This document shows positions 8,387 to 45,790 of a DNA stretch of 64,000 nucleotides, in pieces. The stretch is from Paramacrobiotus metropolitanus. Its lineage: Eukaryota; Tardigrada; Eutardigrada; Parachela; Macrobiotidae. The DNA lies in contig NW_026570376.1 of the NCBI RefSeq assembly GCF_019649055.1, positions 186,001 to 250,000 of the forward strand. Reading direction: 5' to 3'. Numbering within the stretch: position 1 is the stretch's first letter; each line of letters starts with the position of its first letter. Position numbers and translations under genes: made by a program. The notes under the pieces are model-generated. The model did not search any database, was not told where the DNA came from, and worked only from the letters and a program-made list of their open reading frames with translations.

Positions 8387-9127
8387 ATGTTGGGCGGTTC
8401 GATTCCTAGAAATCGCCCACCACCGCGTAAAATTCCAGACAACAAAGTGATCATTGGGGCGTATGATGGGTCGAGAGCCCAGACAAGGTTCAAATTCAAC
8501 GCAAAAGAAATTCCGTTGAATTTGATGTACCTTGCTCTTAATGTTGAACCACCAGAAGCACAAGATGCATTCTGTGGGAAGTCATGGATTGATTACCAGG
8601 AAATCAGGCGGTACTTAAATTCCAAAACGAGATTACCAGCACATTTTAAACCTTGGATTGAGTACGAGGGATGTATCCCTGAAGCTTACCTGGACATCAC
8701 TGATGAGCAGTTTAAAGCGGCTTTGCAGGATGCAAACAGGTGGCTGCCAGAATACACGGAAGATTTGAATAGACGAAGAGAGGCGGCCCAAGCAGCACTT
8801 ACAGCGTCAAAAGCAACCGGAAAAACTCCAAAAAAACAGGCAGCAAATGAGCGCGTCACGCGCGGTGCCAAGGAGAGAATTCCAGCCCAGGCATCCGGTG
8901 CGATATTGGATGAACCCATATCGGAAACTCCAAGCGTGGCCGAGAGCCAGACAGAACCCCAGTCGTCCCAGTCGGACAATAACTTGATAGCGTTGTCGGC
9001 TGCGGATAAAGCGGATATTTCTGAAGGATCAGAAACAAGAGCAAGTAAAAGCATTCGAGGTGGAACAATGACATTCCACCCGGCACAACTAAAATTACAC
9101 AGTTTTGTATCGGAAAAAAGATTTTGA
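8387..9127 (+). CDS. Coiled-coil leader protein, N-terminal part (unknown family)
   Basis: The ATG at 8387 is the first after the leader hairpin. The 246-aa product has an apparently folded N-terminal half (about 1-130, with KFNAKEIPLNLMYLALNV and a WIDYQEIRRYLNS stretch) and a Lys/Ala/Ser-rich disordered second half. I do not recognise the family. The frame closes at 9127, but the downstream ORF takes over from the A run at 9114-9119 with a +1 change, so both may be one protein of about 690 aa if the run carries an extra base or the ribosome shifts there. It has no counterpart in ordinary gypsy elements, where Gag comes first. Confidence 0.7.
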   Translation: MLGGSIPRNRPPPRKIPDNKVIIGAYDGSRAQTRFKFNAKEIPLNLMYLALNVEPPEAQDAFCGKSWIDYQEIRRYLNSKTRLPAHFKPWIEYEGCIPEAYLDITDEQFKAALQDANRWLPEYTEDLNRRREAAQAALTASKATGKTPKKQAANERVTRGAKERIPAQASGAILDEPISETPSVAESQTEPQSSQSDNNLIALSAADKADISEGSETRASKSIRGGTMTFHPAQLKLHSFVSEKRF

Positions 9128-11423: not shown

Positions 11424-14400
11424 GGAGGCCGCGGGAATTATGGGAATAATCGAGGCGGATATTCCCGCTCGTACACGGAGACGGTAATTCCTCAGCCACA
11501 GAATTTGGTAGCTCCTGTGCAGCCTGTTCTGAATGTCTCCCAGCCGCAATTTGTTCCAGTCCCGGTGTTTCAACAGCCGCAATATGTTGAGCAACAACAC
11601 CCGGTGCAATTTGCGCAGACCTTTCCGCAGCCTATCCCCATGCAGGCTCCGATACCCGTTCCGATGCAAATGATGAATCCGATGATGCCGGTTATGCAAC
11701 CGCAGTTCCAACAACCGGTACAGAACTTCGATCCGCAGTACCAACAGGATGGCCCTGCGAATAACAATAACTATAATGGCGGCAATAATCGTGGAAATTA
11801 CCGAAATAATAATAATAATTATCGCGGACGCGGTGGTTACAACAACAACAATAATCGTCAGCAAAATAACCAGAATTACCGACAAAATCAGCAGGCTACC
11901 AGCCAACCTCCGTTTGATGAACGGAATATCCTGAAGGATAAATGGCGAACAAATCGCGGAGTCGAAATCTGCTTCCGCTGTCATGGTCTACATCCAGCGG
12001 CAGGTTGCACCAATCAGTTTGTCCTGCCTCGGCAGTACGAGCCGTCTGCGGAATTATTGGCTCGATATAACAATCCGCAGCAACAAATTAACATGATGGA
12101 ATTAGACTTACCTGCTGGTTTGTCTTCTCCGACGCCCCAATGTAATAAAATGGAAGTTCAGGATTTTTCCCAGTACCCGCTAGCGGATCATGTGTGCTTG
12201 TTGCCGACACTCGACGCTCAGGCATGGTATTCTGTAATTGATATTAATTATCAGAAAGTGAAAACCATGTTAGACACCGGCTCTAGCATTTCAGTTATGT
12301 CTCTGAAAATGGCGAATGAATTAAAATTAAACATCCATCGGTGTCCTGATCATATTAAGGGCAGAGTCGTTCATACGGCCTACCAGGGAAGACAATTAAT
12401 CGAGCCGTTGTCGGTGGTGGTCACCCTCCATGAATTTGGGATGGCTTTCGAGCATGCAGTACTTGTGAGTTCCACTTTTGATCGGGACCACGTTGTTTTA
12501 GGTTTGGACTTTTTAGCTACAAAACCTTTTATATTAGATATGAATACAATGACCTGGCGTCTCTCGCGTAGACAGCCTAATGCTCCGGCATTTTTCCGTC
12601 GTGAGACTCACCTCATGTCCGACGTCATTCGCTCGCACGATTTTGACCCGCTAATCCCTCCGGGAGTTAAGCCGTCCCCCACAATTCCTGCGTTGATGTT
12701 AACAGAGCGAATTGGCGTAGCTAAAGAAGCAAAATTTGTACCATATGAGTCAGCCCATTTAATTCTGGCGAAAGCAGATCCAGAAATTTGTATTTTACAC
12801 TTACAAAAAGCCAAGCAGGAGTGGCCGCGTCCTGTCCAATTGCCACCAACAACAAAAGTGACTGATGCCCCAGTGAAAACGGTAGTTAAAGAAACTGCAC
12901 CTGTACAGACAGCACAGATCAAAAAGGGATCAGATCAGCGTGACGAAGAGTTTGTTCGAAGTGTTGTCCAGGAGATGATTCGTCAATATCTCCCTAAAGC
13001 AGCCTCGGTGGCGGATGAACCGGTTAAACCTATAATTAAAAAGGAAATTAAAACGGAGAAACACCCAGAACCAAGTCAAGTTCGTGGGGGAGGCGGTGAG
13101 ACAGTTGTACATAATATGCAGTCAAGTTCGCGGGGGAGAGAACAGGCGTCTTCTCAGCAGCCAGTTAAAAAGGAAAAAGTTGTTCAGCCGTCACCGGCAA
13201 GCAGTCCGAGTACCTCGTCTCCGACATCGGTTAGTCCCGTGCTTAATTCTGGCTCCAGTCAAGTTCGTGGGGGTGACGATTCCCTGCAACTTCCGATTCG
13301 TATTGCTTCGATGGATGCAGTCCTTAAACAGCATCCTGCAACAAAATACCTATATATGGGTGTCCTAGAAAAATCCGCTAAATCCGTGGAATGTTTAAGC
13401 ATGGATAATAAACTGCTAAATGTCATACCTGTTAAACGCGATCGCAGAGACGTTGATGAAGTCCACGATTATCCTTCTTACATGGCACGGAATCCAGAGT
13501 TGAAGAAGTGGATGACGCCGATGGATAGGCCACAGGATAAACAGTTGTTTCCATCGGAACAACGTTTCAGAGATCCACAGTTTTGGCGCGAAACTCAGCA
13601 GCAATGTGTTGATAGCCGGATGTGGTACAAAATGTACAAAAAGCCGTCGCATGCTAATACCAATTTTACTAAGTACGAAATAAATCGGTTCGTAATCTGT
13701 GAAGGGATTTTATGTAGAGTCCCTGATCATAGTGGTGCTTGCCCGAGAATTTACGTGCCGCACCAATGGCGACAGAAATTGATAGCCTGCTTTCACGAAA
13801 TTTTAATCCATAAGCAAGCCTACGGCCGGCATGAAAAGCTATATCCGTACTTGGTGAAATTATTTTACTGGCCTGATTGTATAATTGAAGTCGAACGCTA
13901 TGAAAAGAACTGCAATGCCTGTCGAAACTCGATTAATGATCGCCGGCATTTTGAAACCTTGAAACGCACGGAGCAATTACACGCACAGAAAGCTACAGGA
14001 AAACGTAAAGTTACCTTTTCTGTGGATAACCCGGCACCAGCAGGTGAATTCGAGAATGGTAGCTTTATTCCCGCGGAAAGCATGAAGCCCGTTAACATCG
14101 GCCCGTTTCCGGTTTCCTACGAAGATATACAAGCGGAGAAGCAAAGGGAAATAAACTCTCAAATGATTAGCAACTCACCGCCGCCGAAGCCGTCTGAGTT
14201 CGTTTCAGAGGATGTCAGAGCGACCTACGATGTCTCGACAAATGTTAATATGAACGAACAGTGGGAAATCTGGAATGAAATACAGAAACAGAAAGCATTG
14301 AGTGAGTCTGTAGCTGTAAACCCAGCGCAACCCACCGTGGGAAATTACGAACCATCACCGGAAGGTTCGGGAAGGAGTTCTTTTCGGCGTAAAAAGTCCA

Positions 14401-15944
14401 GTTACAGCCGTAGAATCAGACGGGAATATGCGGAAAGAGAGGCGGCAAGCCAGATGTCAGCTGAGACAGTGCAGCCAGCACTGGTAGTACAACAGCCGGT
14501 GGCTAAAAATTTGCCCAAACGGTCTCAGGACGTCCGTGAGTCCACAGATATTCCGGCTTGCGTGTATTCGAAGGATGTCATCGAGCTGGCATATAGAGAC
14601 GCCCACCTGAAACAGGCACAAGCACAAGTTGAAGTTAATTCAGTCGAACATGATATTTACCGCTTTGAGCCAGAACCTGGTCCGATTGATTGCTTCAAAA
14701 TGGAGTTATTCCCGGCTTCACCGGTGATAATTCAACCCCACTCGCAGGGAATTATTCGCGCAAAGACGTCTATGTCCGATGAGCAATTTATGGAGTTTCA
14801 GGATGAGTATTTATATACTCAGCCTTTTCTCTACGAAGGAAAAATTCCAGAATCAAATAAAAATGCGGTATTACTGGACGGCGTTTTAACGCTAAACGAA
14901 TACGGAAATTGTAGAGTATGCGTTGTAAATGTCTCTGACAAACCACTGGTTTTAAATGAGGAAACAAACCTGGGTGAAGTCGCGCTCGTGGACGCTGTCT
15001 ACCAGATGGACTCTCCAGAGTTTCAGCACAGTTGTCAAGAAGCGATTACTGGCATTCCTGCAGATAGCGAAAAGGCAGTCCCGGTGCCGAAGAAAATAAA
15101 TGAATGCATGGTTATCCAGTCGCCGCCATCCGCTGTTGCCGTTGTCGATCCTGAAACAGAAGAAACTTTCGCGAAAATTAAAGTGGGAGACATTTGCCCC
15201 AGCAAGGACGAATTAAAAGCCATCTTTTACCAAGCAAAAGCTGTCTTACCGACTAAGGCGCGTCCTGTGGGATGCTGTACCATTTATGAGCACTCTGTGG
15301 ATACAGGTACAAGTTTGCCGGTTAGAACGCCTCCGTACCGTACATCGTTTGAAGATCGCAAGTGGCTCCAAGCTAAAACACAAGAAATGATTAAAGATGG
15401 TATTATTGAGCCTACAAATTCGGCATGGGGAAGTCCTATTTGTATTGTGAAAAAGAAGGATAAATCTCGGCGATTAACCGTGGATTTTCGTAAATTAAAC
15501 GAACGGTTAATGGGCAGCAGTTACCCGCTTCCCAGAGTTGACGACATATTAAATGCCCTCGATAAAGCTACTGTCTTCAGTAAAATAGATTTAAAGAGTG
15601 GCTTTTGGCAAATAAAAATTAAACCAGAAGACCGGTGTAAAACAACGATGGTGGGGGAAGAATTTACGTTCCAGTATAAGGTCTTACCTTTTGGAATGAA
15701 GGACGCGCCTTCGGCTTTCCAGCGCGCCATGGATTTGACGCTTGCGAACATGAAGTGGAGGAACGTGTTGGTTTTATTGATGACATTATTGTCTTCAGTA
15801 AAAACCTGGCTGATCATATGCGGGATTTACAGGAGCTTTTCCTGCGGCTCCAGGAATGCGGCTGGACCATTAATCCTGAAAAAACAGAATTATTTGTTAA
15901 TTCGATTACGTTCTTGGGTCATACGGTCGATCAATTTGGTATAA
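11424..15944 (+). CDS. pol: Pol, part 1: Asn-rich linker, zinc knuckle, protease, extra H2C2 domain, RT N-terminal half
   Basis: Open from the TGA to 15944 (first start-like codon 11505). Counting from 11505: Gln/Pro- then Asn/Arg/Gly-rich linker to about 145; CX2CX3HX4C knuckle CFRCHGLHPAAGC at 156; aspartic protease DTGSSISVMS at 257; a long Lys/Ser/Pro linker with three SQVRGG-like repeats (about 523-592); an integrase-type zinc domain at about 760-806 (H at 13794, CNAC at 13911) ending FYWPDCIIEVERYEKN; a further linker; and RT from about 1265 with SPICIVKKKD, LTVDFRKLN, FSKIDLKSGFWQI and LPFGMKDAPSAFQRAM. The useful frame ends at the T run 15772-15775, just before the catalytic DD motif, after which the coding moves to the next ORF; 15776-15944 is out of frame. 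A zinc domain ahead of RT is unusual. Confidence 0.9.
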   Translation, partial: GGRGNYGNNRGGYSRSYTETVIPQPQNLVAPVQPVLNVSQPQFVPVPVFQQPQYVEQQHPVQFAQTFPQPIPMQAPIPVPMQMMNPMMPVMQPQFQQPVQNFDPQYQQDGPANNNNYNGGNNRGNYRNNNNNYRGRGGYNNNNNRQQNNQNYRQNQQATSQPPFDERNILKDKWRTNRGVEICFRCHGLHPAAGCTNQFVLPRQYEPSAELLARYNNPQQQINMMELDLPAGLSSPTPQCNKMEVQDFSQYPLADHVCLLPTLDAQAWYSVIDINYQKVKTMLDTGSSISVMSLKMANELKLNIHRCPDHIKGRVVHTAYQGRQLIEPLSVVVTLHEFGMAFEHAVLVSSTFDRDHVVLGLDFLATKPFILDMNTMTWRLSRRQPNAPAFFRRETHLMSDVIRSHDFDPLIPPGVKPSPTIPALMLTERIGVAKEAKFVPYESAHLILAKADPEICILHLQKAKQEWPRPVQLPPTTKVTDAPVKTVVKETAPVQTAQIKKGSDQRDEEFVRSVVQEMIRQYLPKAASVADEPVKPIIKKEIKTEKHPEPSQVRGGGGETVVHNMQSSSRGREQASSQQPVKKEKVVQPSPASSPSTSSPTSVSPVLNSGSSQVRGGDDSLQLPIRIASMDAVLKQHPATKYLYMGVLEKSAKSVECLSMDNKLLNVIPVKRDRRDVDEVHDYPSYMARNPELKKWMTPMDRPQDKQLFPSEQRFRDPQFWRETQQQCVDSRMWYKMYKKPSHANTNFTKYEINRFVICEGILCRVPDHSGACPRIYVPHQWRQKLIACFHEILIHKQAYGRHEKLYPYLVKLFYWPDCIIEVERYEKNCNACRNSINDRRHFETLKRTEQLHAQKATGKRKVTFSVDNPAPAGEFENGSFIPAESMKPVNIGPFPVSYEDIQAEKQREINSQMISNSPPPKPSEFVSEDVRATYDVSTNVNMNEQWEIWNEIQKQKALSESVAVNPAQPTVGNYEPSPEGSGRSSFRRKKSSYSRRIRREYAEREAASQMSAETVQPALVVQQPVAKNLPKRSQDVRESTDIPACVYSKDVIELAYRDAHLKQAQAQVEVNSVEHDIYRFEPEPGPIDCFKMELFPASPVIIQPHSQGIIRAKTSMSDEQFMEFQDEYLYTQPFLYEGKIPESNKNAVLLDGVLTLNEYGNCRVCVVNVSDKPLVLNEETNLGEVALVDAVYQMDSPEFQHSCQEAITGIPADSEKAVPVPKKINECMVIQSPPSAVAVVDPETEETFAKIKVGDICPSKDELKAIFYQAKAVLPTKARPVGCCTIYEHSVDTGTSLPVRTPPYRTSFEDRKWLQAKTQEMIKDGIIEPTNSAWGSPICIVKKKDKSRRLTVDFRKLNERLMGSSYPLPRVDDILNALDKATVFSKIDLKSGFWQIKIKPEDRCKTTMVGEEFTFQYKVLPFGMKDAPSAFQRAMDLTLANMKWRNVLVLLMTLLSSVKTWLIICGIYRSFSCGSRNAAGPLILKKQNYLLIRLRSWVIRSINLV
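13075..13096 (+). repeat. Internal PPT-like copy 1 in pol
   Basis: AGTTCGTGGGGGAGGCGG matches the 3' PPT core GTTCGTGGGGG exactly over 11 bases and then continues purine-rich. It lies within the linker between protease and the first zinc domain. Confidence 0.65.
13121..13140 (+). repeat. Internal PPT-like copy 2 in pol
   Basis: GTCAAGTTCGCGGGGGAGAG has one substitution in the PPT core and shares the GTCAAG lead-in with copies 1 and 3. Confidence 0.6.
13258..13278 (+). repeat. Internal PPT-like copy 3 in pol, identical to the PPT/LTR junction
   Basis: GTTCGTGGGGGTGACG at 13263-13278 equals 30438-30453, which covers the 3' PPT and the first five bases of the LTR. A 16-base match to one fixed site is not expected by chance in 24 kb. 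It is a candidate central plus-strand start site, as known for lentiviral and Ty1 central PPTs. Confidence 0.7.
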
Positions 15945-18061
15945 GTACGGATCCAGAGAAAATTCAGGCGGTTAAGGATTTCGGCCCTATAAAAGACAAA
16001 AAAGATATACTGCGTTTCCTGGGCATGGTTGGATATTATCGCCAATTTATTAAGAATTTTCAAGAGATTGCGGAGCCGCTCCAGAAATTAATTCCTAAAA
16101 AAGTTACCTTTGAGTGGGGAACTGACCAGTGTCGGGCTGTGGAACAATTGAAGGAGGCGTTGGTGACGGCGCCGGTCCTGGCCCGTTACGATCCAGAGGC
16201 CTTGTCGAGAGTGGTTGTCGACGCCAGCACTATCGCAGTCGGCGCAGTACTCATGCAGTGCCCGCGAGATAAGCCGACGGATGTGCCAACAAACTGGCGT
16301 CCTATCGCGTATTTAAGCCGCAAGTTAACCGAGACTCAGAAAAGGCTCTACTTCCCTACTGAGCTTGAGGCCTATGCTGTTATTTGCGCTCTCAAGAAAT
16401 GGAAACACTATCTTTCTGATTATCAGTTCGAAGTACAAACTGATCACCAAGCATTGGTCTTTCTTAATAATATGCGCGATGCCGCTGGCCGCCTTGGGCG
16501 CTGGGCGTTGTATATCCAGCAATTTAACACTAAACCTGTTCACATACCTGGCAAAGAGAACGTTATTGCTGATGCCCTGAGTAGAAATCCAGGAGAGCAA
16601 CCGGCACCCGACTCCGACGACTCGGACATTGAGTTTGATTATCGGCAAACTTACCCTTTTGCCGGTGATGCAGCGATGATTGAATGTTGTTTTGCGGTTT
16701 TGGAGAGGGATTATGTGGACATCCGGTTCGAAATGATGTCGGCTGAAGTGAAGGCAGTCTCCCAGGAGGACATGCAAGCCTTCGACGCTGATAAAGTCCA
16801 AAAGTTGATTACGGATGATAAAGCCTCACACTGGGCTGAGGAGCAGTCTCGCGATGCCCGAATTGTCCGATGGCGACTGCTCCTAGAAAATAAAAAGGAA
16901 AAAATGTCAGAGCACGAGAGATTACATCTAAACAAATTTGTAGTGAAACAGGGCGTTGTATACTACAAGTTCGAATTAAACCGGAAGATCTATTACTGCA
17001 TGTATGTACCTGTTCACTGGCGGCTTCAGTTCCTTCAGGATAACCATGATTCCCCGTTAGCGGCACACTTGGGCGTCCTGGCCACCTATAAGAGGATGTA
17101 TAAATATTTTTATTGGCCCCGTATGTTCGAGTCTGTTAAAAGTTATTGTGCCTCTTGCCCGGCGTGCCTTGCACAAAATCCTCTTGCTACGGCACCGGCC
17201 GGTGCTCTCCAGTCAAATCCGACGGTTCCTCCCCGGTTAGTTTGGGCAATTGACGTTGCTCCGGCCCTCCCAACGACGGAATCTGGAAACAAAAACATAA
17301 TTATTGCAGTAGATTACGGGAGCAAATACATAGTCGCAGAGGCAGTTGAGAGAAATGACGCTGCCACTTTGGCGTTGTTCTTTTATCGTCGTATCCTCAC
17401 GGTCTTTGGTATGCCTGTACACATCACTTCAGACCGCGGCAGTAATTTCATGTCTGAAATGTTTCGGGAGCTTCTCGCTCTCGCTGGTGTTGCTCACGCA
17501 CCGACGGCGTCAGGCCACCAGCAGGGTAACGGTCTTGTTGAAAAACGTGTAGGGGAAATCAAGAAGGCGTTGGCGAAGTATGTTAATGAACAGCAAAGTG
17601 ACTGGGATATATTCCTCCCAGCACTTTGTGCTTTTTTTAACAGTAAGGTTGTGGAGAGAACGGGTCGCTCACCATTCTTCATGATGCATGGCACCGAGAT
17701 GCGCTTACCGATAAATAACTTCCTGCCTTTTGAAGAGGATTTCGTGATTCCTGCTCACGTATATGTACAGCAGATGCAGCGCGGCCTTGGTGAGGCCCTG
17801 GACTTGGTGAATGCAGAAGAGTTTCGCCATAAACTAAAAGATAAAATTAGATATGATGCCAATATATCCCATACCTCGTATAAACCGGGAGATCAGGTTT
17901 TGGTGTACGTACTTCATAGAAAAGTGGGGAAGAATCCATCCCTTATGCCCCGTTGGACTGCTGGATGGGAAATCGTGCGTCAGTCAGGGCCAGTGCATTA
18001 TGTAGTAAAAGTAACCGGCGCGGAAATGTCAAAACTGACACTGTACATGTCAGCCGTTTAA
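15755..18061 (+). CDS. pol: Pol, part 2: RT C-terminal half, RNase H, integrase
   Basis: Meaningful from about 15776. It opens at the RT catalytic box FIDDIIVFSKN and continues with the thumb (FLGHTVDQFGI, FLGMVGYYRQFI). RNase H follows with VVVDASTIAVGAVL, TELEAYAVICALKKW and VQTDHQAL. The canonical integrase zinc domain is at 17040-17175 (ending CPAC), and the catalytic core has D at 17252, D at 17432 and E at 17540, with 35 residues between the last two (DD35E). A GPY-like C-terminal domain follows (MPRWTAGWEIV). The reading changes frame again near the A run at 18024-18026, and the last 12 codons before the stop at 18061 are out of frame. The break before the catalytic aspartates would inactivate this copy unless it is a sequencing error or a frameshift site. 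Confidence 0.92.
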   Translation: MEERVGFIDDIIVFSKNLADHMRDLQELFLRLQECGWTINPEKTELFVNSITFLGHTVDQFGISTDPEKIQAVKDFGPIKDKKDILRFLGMVGYYRQFIKNFQEIAEPLQKLIPKKVTFEWGTDQCRAVEQLKEALVTAPVLARYDPEALSRVVVDASTIAVGAVLMQCPRDKPTDVPTNWRPIAYLSRKLTETQKRLYFPTELEAYAVICALKKWKHYLSDYQFEVQTDHQALVFLNNMRDAAGRLGRWALYIQQFNTKPVHIPGKENVIADALSRNPGEQPAPDSDDSDIEFDYRQTYPFAGDAAMIECCFAVLERDYVDIRFEMMSAEVKAVSQEDMQAFDADKVQKLITDDKASHWAEEQSRDARIVRWRLLLENKKEKMSEHERLHLNKFVVKQGVVYYKFELNRKIYYCMYVPVHWRLQFLQDNHDSPLAAHLGVLATYKRMYKYFYWPRMFESVKSYCASCPACLAQNPLATAPAGALQSNPTVPPRLVWAIDVAPALPTTESGNKNIIIAVDYGSKYIVAEAVERNDAATLALFFYRRILTVFGMPVHITSDRGSNFMSEMFRELLALAGVAHAPTASGHQQGNGLVEKRVGEIKKALAKYVNEQQSDWDIFLPALCAFFNSKVVERTGRSPFFMMHGTEMRLPINNFLPFEEDFVIPAHVYVQQMQRGLGEALDLVNAEEFRHKLKDKIRYDANISHTSYKPGDQVLVYVLHRKVGKNPSLMPRWTAGWEIVRQSGPVHYVVKVTGAEMSKLTLYMSAV

Positions 18062-20586: not shown

Positions 20587-20645
20587 TGTCAACCGCCCGA
20601 ACGTAGCCAAATGTTAGGGCAGTCGCAGTTTGAGTGCACACAGCT
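20587..20645 (+). promoter_or_regulatory. Shared promoter-like module upstream of accessory ORF B
   Basis: TGTCAACCGC is followed by GGGCAGT and TTTGAGT; the same three blocks in the same order occur at 26971-27010 ahead of the ORF at 27152. The distance from TGTCAACCGC to the ATG is 173 here and 181 there. This suggests a common Pol II promoter type used by accessory genes. Confidence 0.5.
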
Positions 20646-20759
20646 GTTTCTGGTCTGCACAGCTGCAGTGTGTCAGCAGTTTTCATGTTTGGATCTGCAG
20701 CTCTCTCGTCTTTTCTCATTCACATTCTTTTCCGTTTAAATCCCTACTTTTCTTTTAAA

Positions 20760-21551
20760 ATGGAGATGGAATTTTATAAATCCGAGCGCGGGCGTATGAT
20801 TTGTGCTGAGCAAGATGAGAAGAAGCGCCGTAAGTTCGTCACATTTTCTGATTCCGTTGCGTATGTTCTGGCGAACCAGGAACACATTTCCGAGTTTGTG
20901 TACTTTTGGCGTTCTTTGGACGGCCCGTATATTTCTATTTCGGAGCTTTGTAAACTCTCTAATTCCGAAATTATGGCCTTGAATTTTACAGAACCCGAGC
21001 CAATGGATTTTGAGGCTCAGGTGGCTTTAGAGATCGAGAAAGTTCGTGCGTCGGAAATGCAGATGTATTACTTGAAGATCGGTTTCATTCTGTATCCCGA
21101 CACTCCTGTCCTACGTGAAGCATCTGAACGGCTTCGTAAGGAATTTGGCTTGCCATCCTTATTCAACCCGCCGGAAACCCCACGCGAGCGCCATCAGCGC
21201 ATGGTAGAACACAACAAGCGCGTGATGGAGGAGGAACTCTGTTGTGTTGACTGCGAGAATAATGGCCCGGGTTCGTGTGGCCGTATTTTGTACACCTTGG
21301 ATGATGACGAGCCTGTTCCAAATATCTGGGGATCTGGCAATCTTGAAGATTGGAAAGAGCCAGATTCAGATTTGGATGACTGGTGGGCAGAGCACAAGCT
21401 GGATTTTCCGGATCCAGTCAAAACCTCGCCTGCGGATATGCTGTGGGTGGATGAAGACCTCGGTCCTGACCGGACGCCCAAGAAGAAGCGTAAGCACATC
21501 GTTGTGCAGCGTCACTCTCTGCGTGGCATTCCCCACAACTATTGGAAGTGA
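20760..21551 (+). CDS. Accessory protein B (acidic, possible nuclear signal; unknown family)
   Basis: 263 aa from ATG 20760, the first in a pyrimidine-rich leader. A basic start (EKKRRKF) precedes a folded-looking region (SVAYVLANQEHISEFVYFW, about 25-50), and a helical middle (ASERLRKEFGLP). A cysteine group CCVDCENNGPGSC at about 160-173 may bind metal. Acidic Trp-containing stretches (DSDLDDWWAEHK) follow, and near the C-terminus PKKKRKH is a textbook monopartite nuclear signal. The open frame has no breaks, unlike pol. I recognise no family; a nuclear regulatory role is only inferred from the signal. Confidence 0.7.
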   Translation: MEMEFYKSERGRMICAEQDEKKRRKFVTFSDSVAYVLANQEHISEFVYFWRSLDGPYISISELCKLSNSEIMALNFTEPEPMDFEAQVALEIEKVRASEMQMYYLKIGFILYPDTPVLREASERLRKEFGLPSLFNPPETPRERHQRMVEHNKRVMEEELCCVDCENNGPGSCGRILYTLDDDEPVPNIWGSGNLEDWKEPDSDLDDWWAEHKLDFPDPVKTSPADMLWVDEDLGPDRTPKKKRKHIVVQRHSLRGIPHNYWK

Positions 21552-22614: not shown

Positions 22615-22724
22615 ATTGTGTTTTGCCACACGGGTTGTACACTCTTTAGCTGGTACATTATGGTTTTTGCGTTTCGTCCCGCAAGGCGTTCTTGTTGTTT
22701 ACTTACTGTGTGAGTTGCGAGTTC

Positions 22725-22730
22725 AATAAA
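22725..22730 (+). terminator. Poly(A) signal AATAAA after ORF C
   Basis: First AATAAA downstream of ORF C; the tRNA-like array starts about 200 bp later. Confidence 0.4.
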
Positions 22731-22925
22731 GTCTATGTAGTCACCGTCTGTGCTGTTGTTGGTAAATGCTGAACAGCGTAGCGCACGACCGCACGAGACT
22801 ACACTTCCGTTGGGACATTGTGTTGGTTGCAAGTAGCTGGTCACTTCGGTGGGTAGGCCACAGGCACATTCACTATGGATTGTTGTCAGTGTACGCCTTC
22901 GGCGCTTCCGTTCAATAGGATTTTG

Positions 22926-23024
22926 CGTAGAGCGACCCCGCTAGTATAGTAGTGCCTTCCGTTGCTTCGTCATTGGAGGTTCTAGTCTACATTAAAACGC
23001 GATTTTGTAAATGTCCCTCTTTTT
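22926..23024 (+). ncRNA. tRNA-like unit 1
   Basis: Lead-in GCGTAGAGCGACC, A-box-like TAGTATAGTAG at 22942, B-box-like GGTTCTAGTCT at 22978, T run at 23020. The lead-in also occurs in unit 6 (GCGTAGAGCACC). Confidence 0.5.
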
Positions 23025-23149
23025 GGTTTTTATCTCATGAATCGTTATATTTTATTTAGCGGGACTTAACATGGGGAATATTGGGTGAATCGCTGTTGAG
23101 AGGTGTCAAAATGAACACTGCAAGCTGTGTTATTAGTATTATTTTTGTC

Positions 23150-23272
23150 AATGACTCTTGTAGTCGAGTGGTCCAGTAAAGTGGACAATACCAGGCGAAT
23201 CCGTTTACCTGTTGCTGGTCCTGGGTTCCAATCCCAAAAAATCAAAAAGCGTTTTCTTAAAACCTTCTTTTT
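23150..23272 (+). ncRNA. tRNA-like unit 2
   Basis: A box TAGTCGAGTGG at 23161, B box GGTTCCAATCC at 23224, tail TTCTTAAAACCTTC and T5 at 23268. Confidence 0.6.
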
Positions 23273-23400
23273 CGTGCCTAAATTTTTGCACTTGGTTGTA
23301 CTTACACATTCGGTGTGATACTGTTAATTCCTTATTAGTTTCCAACGAGCGGCACACAGTTGTACAACCCTTACCGTTCAGATTTTCTTCCTTCTTCATG

Positions 23401-23513
23401 AGACGTCGTAGTGTAGTGGTTGTCCGCCTTGTCCCCGCTACGACTCGGTCAATTTAGGGCCTTGGGTTCGAAACCCTTACAAGTAATGCACATTTCTTAA
23501 AACCTTCTTTTTT
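23401..23513 (+). ncRNA. tRNA-like unit 3
   Basis: A box TAGTGTAGTGG at 23409, B box GGTTCGAAACC at 23465, tail TTCTTAAAACCTTC and T6 at 23508. The tail is identical to that of unit 2 over about 20 bases. Confidence 0.65.
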
Positions 23514-23610
23514 GGATTTTATTTTGTTATAATGACATCGAATATGCATTGCTATTGACCGTTGTAATTTTACGTTCTTCTCCGACGAGCGAATTCCAAA
23601 GTTACTGTCG

Positions 23611-23727
23611 TAGAACAGCGTAGTATAGTGCTTTGCACCGTTGAACTACAGCAACGGGGAAATGAAACGGTTGCGGGTTCAAGTCCCTTACAGCTAATTT
23701 GCAATTTTGAGAAACTTACCTTTTTTT
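23611..23727 (+). ncRNA. tRNA-like unit 4
   Basis: A box TAGTATAGTGC at 23621, B box GGTTCAAGTCC at 23676, T7 at 23721. Between the boxes it resembles unit 7 (CCGTTGAACTACAGCAACGG versus CTGTTGAACCACAACAACAG), a stem-loop in both with changed pairs. Confidence 0.65.
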
Positions 23728-23875
23728 CGTTTTATATTCTTGTTGTCGTCTTGGGAAAAGTATTGACAATAGTTCCCAGAAATATTAGAATTAAACTCAA
23801 AGAGCTGGGCGTAAAATTGTATGCACACTCAATGGTTAACATTGCACTTGGCCGTCTGTTTGTCTGTATTCGAAT

Positions 23876-23986
23876 GACTTCGTAGTTCAGTGGCTATGAA
23901 TGATGGCCATTCGCCTCATGTACTACCTCCTTAACGGCCGGTCTTAATCTCAGGGTTGCATGCTGCATGTGGAAAACTACCTTTTT
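23876..23986 (+). ncRNA. tRNA-like unit 5 (degenerate B box)
   Basis: A box TAGTTCAGTGG at 23883, weak B box GGTTGCATGCT at 23954, T5 at 23982. Confidence 0.45.
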
Positions 23987-24067
23987 CTGCCCTATATTTT
24001 CGTACTTTTGTGGGATGAAATTACGCCGAAGGGTTAATGGTTTAGTGCCTTATTGCAGTCAGGTTAA

Positions 24068-24100
24068 TTATACACGACATGGCGCTTCCGGTGTTGAATC
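24068..24100 (+). repeat. Internal copy of the LTR-end/PBS junction
   Basis: TTATACACGACATGGCGC is identical to 7587-7604, which joins the last 12 LTR bases to the first six PBS bases; CCGGTGT follows in both. The internal version starting TGGCGCTTCCGGTG could itself pair to a tRNA 3' end. It lies between tRNA-like units 5 and 6. Confidence 0.7.
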
Positions 24101-24111
24101 TAACTTGGCTT

Positions 24112-24228
24112 TAGCGTAGAGCACCTTGTGGCGTAGTGGCTAGACTAAGAATCCATACCGACCCGCTTCTCGCAAGTCTAGAGTTCAAATCCTAAAAGTT
24201 AATCCGTTTAATTTAAAACCTTCTTTTT
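24112..24228 (+). ncRNA. tRNA-like unit 6
   Basis: A box TGGCGTAGTGG at 24129, B box AGTTCAAATCC at 24182, tail TTTAAAACCTTC and T5 at 24224. The PBS-like sequence at 24080 lies just before it. Confidence 0.6.
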
Positions 24229-24324
24229 CGGTTTTATATTTTTAAATCAATATGCAGCATTATGTTGGCGTTGAGATCGCTAATTTTTCGTTCACTCCCG
24301 GTGAGCGAAGTTAAAGTTTAACTC

Positions 24325-24441
24325 CGCAGATTGTAGTGGCGTAGTGCACTGAACTGTTGAACCACAACAACAGGTGCAATGAAGGTTGCGGGTTCGAGTC
24401 CCCTACAATTAATGTGCATTTTCTGAAACCTTATCTTTTTT
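24325..24441 (+). ncRNA. tRNA-like unit 7 with 7-bp acceptor-like stem
   Basis: A box TGGCGTAGTGC at 24337, B box GGTTCGAGTCC at 24391, T6 at 24436. ATTGTAG (24330-24336) is fully complementary to CTACAAT (24403-24409), placed as the two sides of a tRNA acceptor stem would be. Confidence 0.65.
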
Positions 24442-24558
24442 GCTTTTGTGAATTTATTACTGTTATTGTGAAAATATTGCCGTTGACGGAATGAATCTTT
24501 TAGCCACGGTGACGGTGAAATCTTAACACTTATCAGCTGCTTCAGTGGTGAATTTTTA

Positions 24559-25170
24559 TTATATTGTGAATTTTCGTAGTACAGCGCCTCTAGTGATTGC
24601 CAAATTAAAAGTGAAATGTGGTATAGCCATGCTAGCGTATGGGCAAGAGCAGGATTTAGTTGTCCACCTAGATGCAAGGTTCAATCCTGCGTGAATACAA
24701 ATTTTGCAAGCTTTACGAGTTTCTCTCCATTCTTTTTTCCTTTCTTTGGTGGCTTCTGTAACTTTATTCCCAGAATGGAATATTAAAATTGTTTTTAGCG
24801 TTTGATTCACGCTTACGGGTGTGAAATTTGATTTTACCTTGTTAATTGGCCATTCTATATCGGAATTGACTGCAGCCGCGACTGCGTATTCTCCTACACT
24901 GATTTTATTCCGATTATTTAAAGCCTTACATAAATCCAAAATTAATCTCAAATTAAGATCTGTCCGACCAGCATAATTAACGACTATACGAGAATCTGTA
25001 TGAATGAGAATTATTAAACCAACAAGAGTGAGATTAAACGGAAGAAATAACAGTCGGCCGAATTTTAGAACAAAATTATCAGACAGCCGCCGGAAATTAT
25101 CAGATATGTTACAACTGCTGTTTAGTCCAGATCCAGATTCTCCTTCGCAGTTTTCAAGTTCGCAAGACAT
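24559..25170 (-). CDS. Doubtful minus-strand ORF, possible RNase H-like fragment
   Basis: 203 codons read from 25170. The first part is an out-of-frame overlap with the 3' end of the ORF at 25122-25748 and the last part runs over tRNA-like unit 8, so only 24750-25110 is independent. There LIILIHTDSRIVVNY resembles an RNase H third strand with its aspartate, but no other RNase H motif is clear. It could be a decayed fragment or chance. Confidence 0.25.
   Translation of the reverse strand: MSCELENCEGESGSGLNSSCNISDNFRRLSDNFVLKFGRLLFLPFNLTLVGLIILIHTDSRIVVNYAGRTDLNLRLILDLCKALNNRNKISVGEYAVAAAVNSDIEWPINKVKSNFTPVSVNQTLKTILIFHSGNKVTEATKERKKEWRETRKACKICIHAGLNLASRWTTKSCSCPYASMAIPHFTFNLAITRGAVLRKFTI
24620..24738 (+). 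ncRNA. tRNA-like unit 8 (diverged)
   Basis: A-box-like TAGCGTATGGG at 24633, B box GGTTCAATCC at 24678, T6 at 24733. The shared tail is not recognisable. Confidence 0.4.
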
Positions 25171-25843: not shown

Positions 25844-26539
25844 TTAGTACTTACTGATAGTTTGGGCTAGAGTGGTGCAGAGACAGCAGCCTCGGATGCT
25901 TCGTAGCCACAGGTCGATGCAACTATCCACGAAAAGATTTCCGTAGACGACGACGACATGTTTCTTTTTAACCAGTTGGCGCAGCCCGCGCTCCAGCCAG
26001 TAGTCTACGTCCTGCAGATGTATGTCGAACGTCCAGATCCAGTGTTGGATTTCGGTGCGTGACATGGCATATCGGCCGTGGTAGAGGATTACTCGAATCA
26101 TTCGACGAAACTTGCTAGTTGTGTCGATTACCTTCGTCTCTGGATCGCGGTTATTCTTTACTTCCTCGGCCACTTCGAGCACGAAACGTCCATCGCGGCT
26201 CATCTTCTTGAGCAAGACTCCAGCATTAATAGCGTCGCCGAGGAAGAAATCCACTCGTTCTTCCGTGAAATCATCGTGCATTTCCACAATGAATTTCTTG
26301 ATAGATGACATGTCCACATAATATCCCGTAATGTCAGCCTCAAGAATGCACGCGTGGGCTGCCGTATGCATCGCCAATTGTCGACGGCTTCGGATGGTTT
26401 CGTTTGGCTGTAGAGGCTCTGCCATGGCAAACTGAACTGATTCGCGAGTCCGTCCCTTCCAGTATTCGTAGTGGGCAATCGCGTCCGTTTCGGGCGATGG
26501 TAGAGGCTCTCCAGCTGGTCCTACAGGCTGTCTTGACAT
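25844..26539 (-). CDS. Accessory protein E (two winged-helix-like repeats; minus strand)
   Basis: 231 aa from ATG 26539. Two segments share a helix-helix-strand layout with a closing G-x-hydrophobic hairpin: residues about 75-125 (SSIKKFIVEMHDDF ... FFLGDAINAGVLLKKMSRDGRFVLEV) and about 145-205 (MIRVILYHGRYAMSRTEIQHWIW ... WLERGLRQLVKKKHVVVVYGNLFV). The first resembles the linker-histone/winged-helix pattern in which a third helix is followed by a basic beta wing. If so it would bind DNA or chromatin. This is a fold-level guess from pattern only. It is divergent from the ORF at 27152, with a shared 610-bp intergenic region that holds two copies of the promoter-like motif. Confidence 0.7.
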   Translation of the reverse strand: MSRQPVGPAGEPLPSPETDAIAHYEYWKGRTRESVQFAMAEPLQPNETIRSRRQLAMHTAAHACILEADITGYYVDMSSIKKFIVEMHDDFTEERVDFFLGDAINAGVLLKKMSRDGRFVLEVAEEVKNNRDPETKVIDTTSKFRRMIRVILYHGRYAMSRTEIQHWIWTFDIHLQDVDYWLERGLRQLVKKKHVVVVYGNLFVDSCIDLWLRSIRGCCLCTTLAQTISKY

Positions 26540-27151: not shown

Positions 27152-28471
27152 ATGTCGCCTCCCGCAAAGAAAGCAACTGCGCGGAAGACTGCATCGCGAA
27201 CACCGCGCCCGAGTCGTGCAACAGCGGGACTGAGTTTTGGTTATTCTCCGGACAGCGATGAAGCCCGTTCTTCATCGCGTGTCACTCGGTCTCGAGTTTC
27301 TCGCCGAACTTCGGCTCAGCCAGTGTTCTCTGCACAATCCCCTGCTCCATCTGGAAGTGTAAGTGCAGCAGTGGTCCAGCACCCTTCAATGAATCGGACA
27401 GATGCGATATTGCATGCTTTACAGCGCCGATATGACGCACAACGGCGACGAACGATCCTGCGACGCAATGCTGCTGTGGTTCGCCGCCGTGCCCGTCGGG
27501 GATCATTCCCTACCAGTCCAGACGTTGAGATTCGTCAGCCGTCACCCAAGAAATTGCAGACGCAGGCGGAGAGACAGTTGGGCACTCCTGATTTGACTGA
27601 AGAGGAGCCATCATCTTCTGAAACTCCGTCTGTGCGAGCAAAGCGAGATGAGGTGCATCTGCGTAAAGGCGGAATTTTATACGCGCCCTATAACCCGGAT
27701 GCACCGCGGCCGGTCTTCAAGACCAAGCAGACGGCTCGCAAACGAGCGCATTCCGGCGCATTTCCAAGAATGGCTGTCGCAAACAAGAATGGTGAGCTGG
27801 CTATATCTGAAGCCTATTTTTCTGGACTAAATCGCTTTCATCTTTTTTATCCACGTCTATATTTGTCGCGCTTTTTATTCCGTGACGGAGCTTTGATTAA
27901 CCGTTTTGACTTATGTGCATTTACTCAGATGCTTCCTACAGCTATCGCTCTTGAATTGCGAGGCCAATATCTCTATCTCAATCCTGTTTTTATTGGTCTG
28001 TTTAAAGAAATCGCCAATCGTCAGCAGCGTGATGCGGTGGCTCGTCAAGCGATAGTCGATGCTGGTGTCGTGGAAAATGCTGAACCGCAGGCTTCAACCT
28101 CTGCTGCACGCCCGTATAATTTTCGTACTCGTGGGGAAAAGCGCAAGTACAAGGAGGTCTCGCCGTCCTCGTCTTCTTCACCAAGCGAAGTGTCGGTCTC
28201 GGACGATGGGGAAGATCGTGAGGATCCTTCGGCCGTGTTATCCCCTGATCAGAGTGCTGATGTCGAAGCTGATGAGAACGCGGACATGGTAGTTGATTGC
28301 GAGGGCGACGATGGATCTGACTTGGGGAAGATGGATGTAGATCCGTTGCCGTCTCTGCAGCCGGCTGTTCCAGCTGTGCCACCTGTTGCCGTAGTTGTCC
28401 GCGAGGACTCACCTGAGATTGCGGAACCGGCAGGCTATATTCAACAACAGCCGCATTCTGATGAATTGTGA
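27152..28471 (+). CDS. Accessory protein F (basic N-terminus, acidic C-terminus; relative of protein A)
   Basis: 439 aa from ATG 27152. The N-terminal 170 residues are very rich in Arg, Ser, Pro and Lys (SPPAKKATARKTASRTPRPS), like a nucleic-acid-binding or chromatin-associated tail. A folded block at about 170-300 carries GILYAPYNPD and SGLNRFHLFYPRLYLSRFLF, and aligns by layout with residues about 80-165 of the ORF at 19345. The last 120 residues are Ser/Asp/Glu-rich (SSSSSPSEVSVSDDGEDRED) and probably disordered. No AATAAA is seen close behind. Function unknown. Confidence 0.72.
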   Translation: MSPPAKKATARKTASRTPRPSRATAGLSFGYSPDSDEARSSSRVTRSRVSRRTSAQPVFSAQSPAPSGSVSAAVVQHPSMNRTDAILHALQRRYDAQRRRTILRRNAAVVRRRARRGSFPTSPDVEIRQPSPKKLQTQAERQLGTPDLTEEEPSSSETPSVRAKRDEVHLRKGGILYAPYNPDAPRPVFKTKQTARKRAHSGAFPRMAVANKNGELAISEAYFSGLNRFHLFYPRLYLSRFLFRDGALINRFDLCAFTQMLPTAIALELRGQYLYLNPVFIGLFKEIANRQQRDAVARQAIVDAGVVENAEPQASTSAARPYNFRTRGEKRKYKEVSPSSSSSPSEVSVSDDGEDREDPSAVLSPDQSADVEADENADMVVDCEGDDGSDLGKMDVDPLPSLQPAVPAVPPVAVVVREDSPEIAEPAGYIQQQPHSDEL

Positions 28472-42489: not shown

Positions 42490-44227
42490 GTGATGTGGTC
42501 GGTAGGGTTCCCCAATGTGTGCTTGCCGATTCAGGCACTGCCAAATAGTTGCCGCTTGTGGTTACTAGTTCTATTAAAAATGGCATTGGATGGAGGATGG
42601 AGTGATGGATGCCCCTCCAGCTCTCCGAAACTGACGCTCTGTAATACGATTTTTTTGAAATCTTTCTATATTAACGTATTAAATTGAAATTTATTCAGTA
42701 GAGGAATCTCTGCTCCAAGCCGAACAGCAAATGCAAGACGGCCGGATGCTGTTGCCGATCCTCGACCGGTTTTTACCACCAGAGAAGCAGGAGATCCTCC
42801 GCGCTGCCATCGGGACCACCGTGTCCTTCTCCTGTACACCCCTGGCGACGGGCGTCACGGATCCGCTTCAGCTTATATGGCGTCATCATAACTTACTGAT
42901 TTACGCCAACTCCAGTGTACCACCGGCCACCTCCGAAGCGTATTTCTACACCCACGCTGTCCACGGACCGGCCAGCCACCTGTTCATCCACAACGAGAGC
43001 ATAGTATTACCGTGCAGACGTATCGTTTAATTCAACTTTAATCTCAAATTTGCGTGAGCTGCAGCACCGGATCAAAACACCGAGGCGGTGAGCAGGCGAC
43101 GGGCAGCGCTGGCAGTACTTTGTTCAGTGTGACTGCTGCCAAATTACGTGCAAATTTTAAATATTCGAAAATTTATAACTTTGTGTATTCTTTAGTAAAA
43201 ATTGTATCCATAGGCTTGAAAAATACATAATAATATAAACTTTTTGACAGTATGAATGCAATTCTTTTATTTCGATCGCAAAGTAACGATAGGACTCTCC
43301 GCATTTAACATAGTCCTCTATGAGAAAATGGATAAAAGCCAGCACCGGGTTTGCCATAGAGGAGTATGGTAAATGCGGAGAAATGGTATCTTTACTTTGC
43401 AATCGAAATAAAAAGATTGCATTCATACTGTCAAAAAGTTTATATTATTATGTATTTTTCAAGCCTATGGATACAATTTTTACTAAAGAATACACAAAGT
43501 TATAAATTTTCGAATATTTAAAATTTGCACGTAATTTGGCAGCAGTCACACTGAACAAAGTACTGCCAGCGCTGCCCGTCGCCTGCTCACCGCCTCGGTG
43601 TTTTGATCCGGTGCTGCAGCTCACGCAAATTTGAGATTAAAATTGAATTAAACGATACGTCTGCACGGTAATACTATGCTCTCCCACAACATGACCGCAG
43701 ACGCTAGCGGCAGCGTGCATTGTATGCAGTATAGGCACAACGGTAGCTTGTATGTTGTGAGGCGATGGGAGCTCGTGGGGAAATTACGCTCGGCGAAAGA
43801 AGTCTTTAAGGGCGATATTACCGTATCCAAGGTACCAACAACTCAGTTCCGCGAGCGTTCATTCATTTCTTTCACCTGCACCACGGCATACCAGTGCGAG
43901 TGCGATCGATATCCGAACTTTATTTGGAAAGCGGACGGGAAATTCATGGTTGTTCCCAAGAAACACGGGATGGCGGATTATTTACGTACATCTTTCGGTA
44001 CGGAAACTGCACCTCCAAACGGGCTGTTGGCCGACAAGCTGTCGTACCAGTGCCGATGGCCAACCGATGCCGAAAACATTCCGTGCCAGATAACTCTATT
44101 AGCCATCGAGTGGCTGGCCATTCGTGATCAGCCAATGGTGGTCGAGTGCTGGGTGCAACCGGACCCAACCGTTAATGAATGGTTCGTTAACAAAATTATG
44201 ATTGATGTTTCCGGCCGAAAAATATGA
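42490..44227 (+). pseudogene. Ig-like secreted-type protein, copy 2, split by a foldback transposon
   Basis: Exon 1 42490-42640, intron 42641-42698, exon 2 42699-44227. Domain order is as in copy 1 (VSFSCTP...LIWRH; then SGSVHCMQY; ISFTCTTAYQCECDRYPNFIWKADGK; VECWVQPDPTVNEWF). A 689-bp element at 42995-43683 interrupts the first Ig-like domain after the codons for HLFIHN; in the rest the frame is open to the stop at 44225. Without the insertion the reading would be continuous, so copy 2 was probably functional until the transposition. The element could also be spliced out by chance, which I cannot test. Confidence 0.75.
42995..43683. mobile_element. 689-bp near-perfect foldback transposon with 7-bp target duplication
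   Basis: Ends GAGAGCATAGTATTACCG and its exact complement; arms of about 330 bp are almost perfectly complementary around a centre near 43340. Flanking CCACAAC at 42988-42994 and 43684-43690 is the target duplication; copy 1 of the gene has CCTCCACAACATGACC at the same place with no insertion. No transposase is encoded. A 7-bp duplication does not match the common superfamilies with 2, 4, 5, 8 or 9 bp. Confidence 0.85.
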
Positions 44228-44689: not shown

Positions 44690-45790
44690 ACAGTGCACTG
44701 GATCACTACGAGTAGTTGGGTGACTCGTCACTTCACTGGCTCTTCTCACTGGAAAGTGGTGTGTGCCCAAAAGTGTACATCCGGTCAGTAGTGGTACCTC
44801 GATTACTTGCTTACCTAACCGGTTCTGTTCGCCGGACAGTAGTGGTAGCTCGGTCACTCGTTCCCTAAAGGGCCTTGCACACTGCACAGTAGTAAGTCAC
44901 TCGTTCCCTATTAAACGGGCTCTGTACCCTAAACGTTAGTGATATCTCGGTCGCCCGCTCACCTACCGGGCTCTCTGCAGCGGTTGGTAGTGACAGCGCG
45001 GTCACCCGCTCCCCTCCCGGGCTCTGTGCACGGACAGAAGTGGTAACTCGGTCACTCGTTTAAACGGGCTTTCTGCGCCGGACAGCAGTGGTAGCTCGGT
45101 CACCCGCTCACCTACCGGGTTCTTTGCACTCGTTTACCGAGCGGGCTTTGTGCACGAGATAGTAGTGGTAGCTCGGTCACCTCGGCTTCGCCTCTGCGTT
45201 TCTTGTGGTCTACGGGTGGTCGATTCGCGGAGGCAAAGCCGAGGCTGTTTCTGTTTTAATCGTTTTTATTCGTACCTGTTGGCTCTGTCAACTGGACTAC
45301 AGTGGTGGACTCGTAGTTCGGTCACTCATGTGCACTGTACAGTAATGACAGCTCGGTCACTCGGCTCTGTGCACGGACCGCAGTGGTAACTAGGTCACGC
45401 GCTCCCTAAAGGGCTTTGTACGCTGGACAGTAGTGACAGCTCGGTCACCCGCTCACCTCCCGGGCTAGCTCTGTGCACGGACAGTAGTGGTAACTCGGTC
45501 ACTCGTTTACCTGACGGGCTTTCTGCGCCGGACTGCACTGGTAGCTCGGTCACCCGCTCACCCACCGGGCTTTGTGCATCGGACAGTAATGGAAGCTCGG
45601 TCAACTGCTCACATAGCTATCCATACAAGTAGTGGCAATTCGGTCACTCACTGGCTTATCGGGCTATTTTAACTAGAATATAGTGGGCTATTTTAACTAG
45701 AATATTTTAACCAGAATATAGTCACTCGCTGAACTAACGGGTTTGCGCAGTGAACAGTTGCGGTAGTTCGGTCTATCACTGATTGAACAG
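44690..45790. repeat. Minisatellite, unit about 50 bp, roughly 16 copies
   Basis: Units resemble GACAGTAGTGGTAGCTCGG then TCACCCGCTCACCTACCGGGCT and CTGTGCACCG. Copies vary in length and sequence. One unit is interrupted at 45181-45245 by an inverted repeat (CTCGGCTTCGCCTC ... GAGGCAAAGCCGAG), whose left half also occurs alone at about 44414. Confidence 0.75.

Follow-up and report, generated by a model that had tools for sequence, protein, structure and literature searches.

The presence of an array of RNA polymerase III (Pol III)-type units within a retrotransposon of the tardigrade Paramacrobiotus metropolitanus was confirmed; the array holds seven units and, as a doubtful eighth, U5. It was analyzed in a window of 64,000 nucleotides (nt) (C156:186001-250000), and further copies were sought in the 169.8-Mb assembly (533 contigs) to which the window belongs. 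The host element is a Ty3-type (Metaviridae-like) long terminal repeat (LTR) retrotransposon. On balance, the units are probably seven or eight type-2 Pol III genes of a giant Ty3-type element, with small RNAs that would serve the element in trans. Of the options raised in a preliminary description of this DNA, a role as regulator or decoy was favored over those of a primer or of a short interspersed element (SINE). Coordinates of all features are given in Table 1 as positions in the window.

To detect units, matrices for the A box (22 distinct sequences) and the B box (20 distinct sequences) were derived from 40 host tRNA genes, fetched out of 60 listed, and combined with a T-run rule. The strict scan detected five units in the array, compared with a mean of 0.075 and a maximum of 1 in 200 Markov shuffles of the array. 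Over the whole window, the same scan returned six units on the + strand, five of them in the array, and none on the − strand (shuffle mean 1.3 per strand, 10 runs); no Pol III unit was found by it in the LTRs of the element. Using a looser scan, seven units were detected in the array (shuffle mean 0.19, maximum 2, 100 runs). A box, B box, and T-run stand in the order of a type-2 Pol III gene in seven units, and doubtfully in U5.

Copies of the array were collected by a genome search, resulting in 47 matches (best 40 of 59 candidate regions scored). Seven of the 46 loci were duplicates of the same places, which left 39 distinct ones; the alignment took in 36 of these and excluded the partial copies L036, L037, and L046. 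Pairwise identity between the 36 aligned copies was 78-97%. Boxes were retained across this alignment, and the loss of boxes in other copies, which the preliminary description had named as an observation that would speak against it, was not found. Distances from A box to B box were 55 in U4 (36/36 copies), 54 in U7 (35/36), and 43 in U1 (35/36); 7 bp between the boxes of U1 are missing in the window copy and present in 35/36 copies. The B box is followed by the T-run after about 42-47 nt in six units, near 30 nt in U5, and 55 nt in U8 (36/36 copies). For U8, the looser scan and a sister copy both indicated that the A box fits at 24633 (A-B distance 45) better than at 24577, the earlier position that was used for the diversity, distance, and tree counts. 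In agreement with the earlier statement that several units share one tail, TTAAAACCTTCTTTTT was found to be identical in U2, U3, and U6.

Since a T4-T9 run was present downstream of all host tRNA genes (40/40), the T-runs of the array are credible terminators. All eight keep at least T4 in every row having them (36 rows; 29 for U2), U5 having T5 in 24/36 copies. T4 was kept less in six other T-runs (30/36, 27/35, 22/29, 34/36, 33/36, and 25/36 rows).

Mean pairwise diversity over the 36 copies was 0.044 for A boxes, 0.079 between the boxes, 0.056 for B boxes, and 0.021 for T-runs; trailers and spacers gave 0.121 and 0.157, respectively. Following circular shifts of the mask, values as low were obtained in 0.1% of cases for A boxes, 3.1% between the boxes, 0.9% for B boxes, 0.05% for T-runs, and 47% for trailers. 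A tree was then built on the spacer columns of 29 copies, the seven copies with a deletion in U2/U3 being dropped. Changes per site on this tree amounted to 0.43 for A boxes, 0.86 between the boxes, 0.69 for B boxes, and 0.25 for T-runs, as compared with 1.94 for spacers and 1.59 for trailers, which are slightly more conserved than spacers. The stretch from A box to B box, referred to here as the payload, was more conserved than spacers in 7/8 units (range 0.32 in U1 to 1.73 in U3), most strongly in U1, U4, U6, U7, and U8. The deletion, of about 190-250 bp, removes or fuses U2 and U3 in 7/36 copies. For five of the seven (L039, L041, L042, L043, and L045), the left aligned piece and the U2 tail end at the same base, as expected from recombination between the identical U2 and U3 tails.

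The units had previously been called tRNA-like, which holds for the promoter boxes but not for the fold. Using ARAGORN at default stringency, no tRNA was found in the window or, with introns allowed, in the 36 copies; relaxed settings yielded 395 and 25,372 contradictory reports, which were disregarded. Rfam returned nothing at gathering scores over the window, and at E ≤ 10 over 22700-24900 it gave no tRNA (RF00005 absent) and two weak non-tRNA matches (E 5.3 and 8.7). Mean folding z of whole units, computed for 10 of the 36 copies, ranged from −0.63 to 0.67, with host tRNAs (n = 40) at −2.11 and spacers at 0.08 as references; the lowest value for part of a unit was −1.53 (U1, lead to B box). 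Assignment to tRNA or to a known RNA family was rejected on these grounds. As folding z lies near 0, compared with −2.11 for tRNAs, the conserved property is mainly sequence and not shape. The data point to a conserved stretch that is mostly unstructured, with constraint mainly on sequence.

Two stems proposed earlier were followed through the alignment. The acceptor-like stem of U7 did not hold: all eight tested pairs were complete in just 4/36 copies, the longest run was 6 pairs in one copy and at most 4 pairs in 30/36 copies, and one copy was unscorable. The central stem of U4 and U7 was mostly upheld, with one two-sided change: in either unit, five of its six pairs are kept in 34-36 of the 36 copies. 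C-G, U-A, and U-G all occur at the second pair, but the third pair is broken in 10/36 copies of U4. Four sister stretches of U4/U7 type also fit this stem, with the restriction that at least 4/6 pairs were required for their selection.

Genome-wide searches with payload probes were carried out for U6 and U8. When up to 3 mismatches were allowed, the U8 26-mer matched at 43 places, 38 of these matches being exact. Arrays found by the genome search account for 38 of the 43, and the other five (C37, C73, C94, C96, and C136) adjoin other array marks. The U6 20-mer gave 39 exact matches and two with one mismatch. Of these 41, 38 lie in the same set of arrays and two (C73 and C136) beside other array marks, leaving one on C502. 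Eight further matches with 3 mismatches were obtained, versus six for a reversed-pattern control. For U6 and U8, the near confinement of the probes to arrays does not support the earlier alternative of a captured tRNA-derived SINE; neither probe revealed a dispersed set of copies beyond the element.

Two sister arrays, L093 and L094, were reached via a search with the tail. Where their matches to the window array are long, identity is about 68-79%, and the pieces stand in a different order. Host matrices detected four units in L093 and six in L094 (shuffles 0.15 and 0.13, respectively). A search with L094, in which the best 40 of 58 candidate regions were scored, listed at its head L094 itself, seven places at 77-83% identity, and three at 70-74%. 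Between L093 and L094, compared as pieces cut by eye, bodies were 98% (U8), 95% (U6), 91% (U3), and 87% (U5) identical, and most spacers 57-82%. Payloads of matching units clearly differ between the element lineages of the window and of the sister arrays.

Genes encoding short Pol III RNAs would account for the combination of promoter boxes, fixed spacings, terminators, and conserved payloads. Sequence data and comparisons document the units with their spacing and show that purifying selection has kept them in the element. Units have been duplicated, lost, and reshuffled, and payloads vary from unit to unit and from one element lineage to another. Each unit would follow one plan of A box, conserved payload, B box, loosely conserved trailer, and T-run terminator. 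Host Pol III would transcribe the units, yielding short RNAs, each roughly 100 nt long, that may act in trans for the element. Single-stranded payloads would most likely bind host RNAs or proteins, by which silencing could be blunted or expression regulated, like Pol III RNAs of some retroviruses and herpesviruses. A tentative extension is that the element has its own multi-gene Pol III RNA system, in which a constant promoter and terminator frame presents single-stranded payloads like guides or baits against host targets. Equally speculative is the corollary that payloads of such a frame would vary between units and lineages while being nearly invariant within a lineage, as might be the case for anti-silencing RNAs.

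Several results weigh against this interpretation as genes for trans-acting RNAs. Eight units had been claimed previously, and seven stand when scored by host matrices (shuffles 0.19), but U5 is doubtful as an eighth: its poor B box, GGGTTGCATGC, was missed by the host matrix, while its A box, body, and T-run are conserved. The difference in conservation between the U3 payload and spacers was not significant on the tree, and the divergence of spacers (0.157) is below that of synonymous sites. Between L093 and L094, identity reaches 95% in the spacer from U7 to U5, a level equal to that of payloads, and is only 81-82% in bodies of U4 and U7 type. RNAalifold scored better than shuffled columns in U5 (z −3.4), U2 (−2.6), U7 (−2.3), and weakly U8 (−1.7). 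No target of the payloads was found, and their complementarity to either strand of the element was not clearly beyond shuffles; the value for U7 versus the antisense strand was equalled by 1/40 shuffles, among 24 tests. The idea that payloads act on the element itself as antisense RNAs or guides was rejected on this basis. In complementarity to the 40 host tRNAs, only the payloads of U2, U6, and U8 scored near the top of the shuffle distribution, being equalled or exceeded by 0, 2, and 1 of 40 shuffles, respectively; units and tRNAs have boxes in common, which bears on these scores.

The position of the array between two convergent gene blocks also suits a role at the DNA level and counts against the RNA-based reading. 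Both blocks point at the array and are closed by a conserved AATAAA, at 22725 for the rightward block and, on the minus strand, at 24904 for the leftward one. By binding TFIIIC and Pol III the array might act as a boundary or roadblock that separates the convergent Pol II gene blocks, any RNA being incidental. tRNA genes act as insulators elsewhere. Such a boundary needs boxes and not payloads, yet payloads are more conserved than spacers in 7/8 units and terminators are kept too; this explanation was considered rather unlikely. Little different in probability, though slightly lower, is a microRNA (miRNA) cluster of retroviral type, in which each unit would be a hairpin processed to a miRNA. 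Promoter type, clustering, and T-run termination as in bovine leukemia virus (BLV; PMC7252678) and likeness to the Pol III primary miRNAs of foamy viruses (PMC7693620) agree with it, and invariant stretches of at least 20 nt occur in the units. However, compact hairpin precursors were not found, the folding z of whole units lying around 0 as given above, and the RNAalifold signal of U5, U2, U7, and weakly U8 is absent in the other four units (U1, U3, U4, and U6).

Untranscribed conserved DNA carrying clustered binding sites for host factors could also explain why sequence is constrained while RNA structure is hardly evident. T-runs are nevertheless conserved, and their distance from the B boxes is steady, as a terminator needs; we regard this possibility as improbable. 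The lowest probability of all was given to passive relics, i.e. a tRNA-derived sequence amplified in the element and kept by chance or by recent spread. Paralogy of the units, the U2-U3 deletions, and an internal copy resembling the LTR end and primer-binding site (described below) would be in line with such an origin. Against it stand the strong contrast between units and spacers within the same copies, the rates on the spacer tree, which contradict it, the near confinement of the U6 and U8 probes to arrays, and the age of the copies, which are not young (mean dS 0.279-0.472 in four flanking open reading frames, ORFs).

The closest known counterparts of the array are the Pol III miRNA cassettes of BLV and foamy viruses, from which it differs by lacking clear hairpins. 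In BLV (PMC7252678), as in the tardigrade element, type-2 Pol III units that have both boxes and a poly-T terminator are clustered inside a retroelement but outside gag-pol. The BLV cluster consists of five pre-miRNA hairpins, whereas the array comprises seven to eight mostly unstructured units, with a conserved payload between the boxes, in an invertebrate LTR retrotransposon. Simian and bovine foamy viruses (SFV and BFV) resemble it in producing short Pol III transcripts from a complex retroelement, transcription being inferred for the tardigrade, but their cassettes are dumbbells or single stem-loops (PMC7693620); SFV miRNAs are encoded in the LTR (PMC7104284). The tRNA-miRNA-encoded RNAs (TMERs) of murine gammaherpesvirus 68 likewise stem from viral Pol III units bearing both boxes, but belong to a DNA virus and consist of a tRNA-like 5′ part followed by miRNA hairpins (PMC8223928), whereas in the tardigrade units no tRNA fold was found and the trailer is poorly conserved. 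Helenus, Ajax, and Cassandra, terminal-repeat retrotransposons in miniature (TRIMs), are LTR retroelements that likewise carry Pol III-type promoter sequence, in their case derived from tRNA or 5S; these promoters are expected to be used by Pol III, as has been shown for Cassandra (PMC10886601). These TRIMs, Helenus/TRIMp3 included, are short and non-autonomous and have one unit, tRNA-like in Helenus-type elements, in their LTR, in contrast to the internal array of a 24-kb coding element.

Among the entries listed by searches of the open PubMed Central (PMC) literature, judged by titles and the starts of abstracts, no LTR retrotransposon with an internal array of Pol III genes was seen, and no paper was returned for "Paramacrobiotus" with "retrotransposon". 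Clusters of Pol III small RNAs have been described for a few retroviruses and herpesviruses, and the present one lies in an invertebrate LTR retrotransposon. With dozens of copies in a single genome, the array constitutes a natural saturation experiment that shows which bases are important. Should the RNAs be produced, this would suggest that the evolution of non-coding regulators by selfish elements is independent of vertebrate immunity, and the targets of the RNAs could be tested directly in a stress-tolerant animal.

The preliminary description had placed the array inside a retrotransposon, and this was borne out. The two LTRs are identical at 571/572 bases (one difference), have TG..CA ends, and are flanked on both sides by GTAT, the short target-site duplication of a Ty3-type element. 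Pfam matches were obtained for gag-asp protease, RVT_1, RNase H, and integrase; their order, spanning 11424-18061, is that of a Ty3-type element. A Ty3_capsid match was weak (15.3 bits, under the 29.1 cutoff). The primer-binding site was compared by eye with the 3′ end (plus CCA) of the host tRNA-Lys(CTT) gene at locus L068, one of the 40 tRNA genes used, which it matches over 13 nt. Because this site fits a host tRNA-Lys and the units end in T-runs, the proposal that the element makes its own primers was abandoned and a primer role of the units rejected.

The reverse transcriptase (RT) match is split over two frames near about 15750-15770, which indicates that pol is broken at that point in the window copy, though the LTRs are almost identical. 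Between the protease and RT matches (11424-15944), about 970 residues contain no Pfam domain above cutoff; a gap of this length is far beyond an ordinary Ty3 pol. A B-box-like GGTTCGATTCC is present at 8388-8430, within the opening codons of the first long ORF downstream of the 5′ LTR, and the stretch around it could form a short hairpin, as judged by eye. For the ORF running from RT to integrase, 238 protein matches were obtained after scoring the 7993 candidates sharing most words. Among the 120 listed, relatives covering at least 90% of the query were 26-31% identical, and no tardigrade relative was found among the names shown, most of these rows being nameless.

The spacer upstream of U6 contains TATACACGACATGGCGCTTCCGGTG, which nearly duplicates the LTR end together with the start of the primer-binding site. 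Aligned locally with the true junction it scored 51, the best of 200 shuffles reaching 44, and it is almost unchanged across copies, with 0.22 changes per site compared with 1.94 in spacers. A pattern covering both the internal copy and the true site occurred 103 times in the genome; among the 100 occurrences listed, mainly two forms were seen, corresponding to the true site and the internal copy, commonly about 16.4 kb apart. The sister arrays L093 and L094 contain three internal copies each. CCGGTG is located 41 nt upstream of a scan-found A box in the window and in 3/6 sister copies; of the remaining sister motifs, one is 40 nt before an A box placed by eye, and two are at 31 and 61 nt. Under the tentative extension given above, these internal copies would mark how modules spread, or take part in priming.

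Protein-coding cargo around the array, also part of the preliminary description, was substantiated by selection on the flanking ORFs. Four of these, each measured in at least 18 of the 20 longer loci, gave a mean dN of 0.028-0.063 at the dS given above, and in three of the four the median dN/dS was 0.10-0.14; single copies of two ORFs gave 1.36 (20634..21551) and 0.36. For 25844..26539, the median is undefined due to one copy without synonymous change. A dN/dS of about 0.1 with dS up to 0.47 reflects selection, not youth of the copies. The element copies thus descend from lineages under selection, in which the array is kept along with the proteins. No Pfam match above cutoff was found for the two leftward ORFs, and AlphaFold models of two cargo proteins were poor (mean pLDDT 47.2 and 48.6). 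The 60-aa ORF precedes the AATAAA that closes the rightward block. No dN/dS was obtainable for 27152..28471, which was whole in 0/20 loci. The presence of two opposed gene blocks in the element recalls complex retroviruses.

Table 1. Positions of the element, its array units, and its cargo in the 64,000-nt window
Feature	Start	End	Strand	Details
LTR retrotransposon, Ty3-like, 23,994 bp	7027	31020	+	LTRs, GTAT flanks, Pfam domains
5′ LTR	7027	7598	+	
Primer-binding site TGGCGCCCACCGG	7599	7611	+	Complementary to tRNA-Lys(CTT) 3′ end (by eye)
Cargo ORF, rightward	19345	20193	+	Median dN/dS 0.11; 15/18 copies without frameshifts or stops
Cargo ORF, rightward	20634	21551	+	Median dN/dS 0.14; 4/18 copies without frameshifts or stops
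Small ORF, 60 aa	22205	22387	+	Codon-like conservation, 21 rows, by eye
AATAAA, polyadenylation-like, rightward block	22725	22730	+	Each base kept in 20 or 21/21 rows
U1	22942	23024	+	A box 22942, B box 22978, T-run 23020
U2	23161	23272	+	A box 23161, B box 23224, T-run 23268
U3	23409	23513	+	A box 23409, B box 23465, T-run 23508
U4	23621	23727	+	A box 23621, B box 23676, T-run 23721
U5	23883	23986	+	A box 23883, poor B box 23953, T-run 23982
Internal copy of LTR end and primer-binding-site start, spacer before U6	24070	24092	+	Local alignment, conservation
U6	24129	24228	+	A box 24129, B box 24182, T-run 24224
U7	24337	24441	+	A box 24337, B box 24391, T-run 24436
U8	24577	24738	+	A box best at 24633, B box 24678, T-run from 24733; conserved body starts near 24577
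TTTATT (minus-strand AATAAA), polyadenylation-like, leftward block	24904	24909	−	Each base kept in 19 or 20/21 rows
Cargo ORF, leftward	25122	25748	−	Median dN/dS 0.10; 17/20 copies without frameshifts or stops
Cargo ORF, leftward	25844	26539	−	Mean dN 0.028, dS 0.279; 13/19 copies without frameshifts or stops
Cargo ORF, 439 aa	27152	28471	+	5 protein matches, all Paramacrobiotus metropolitanus (7993 candidates scored)
Cargo ORF	29013	29810	+	Open frame; no Pfam match
3′ LTR	30449	31020	+	GTGGGGG just before, polypurine-tract-like (by eye)

Outside the element, the window contains a tandem array of units of about 51 bp (44767-45629; 10 copies in one family). An inverted repeat with 297-nt arms, 98% complementary and 95 nt apart, is located at 42995-43683 and adjoins sequence that is repeated at 31.3-32.1 kb.

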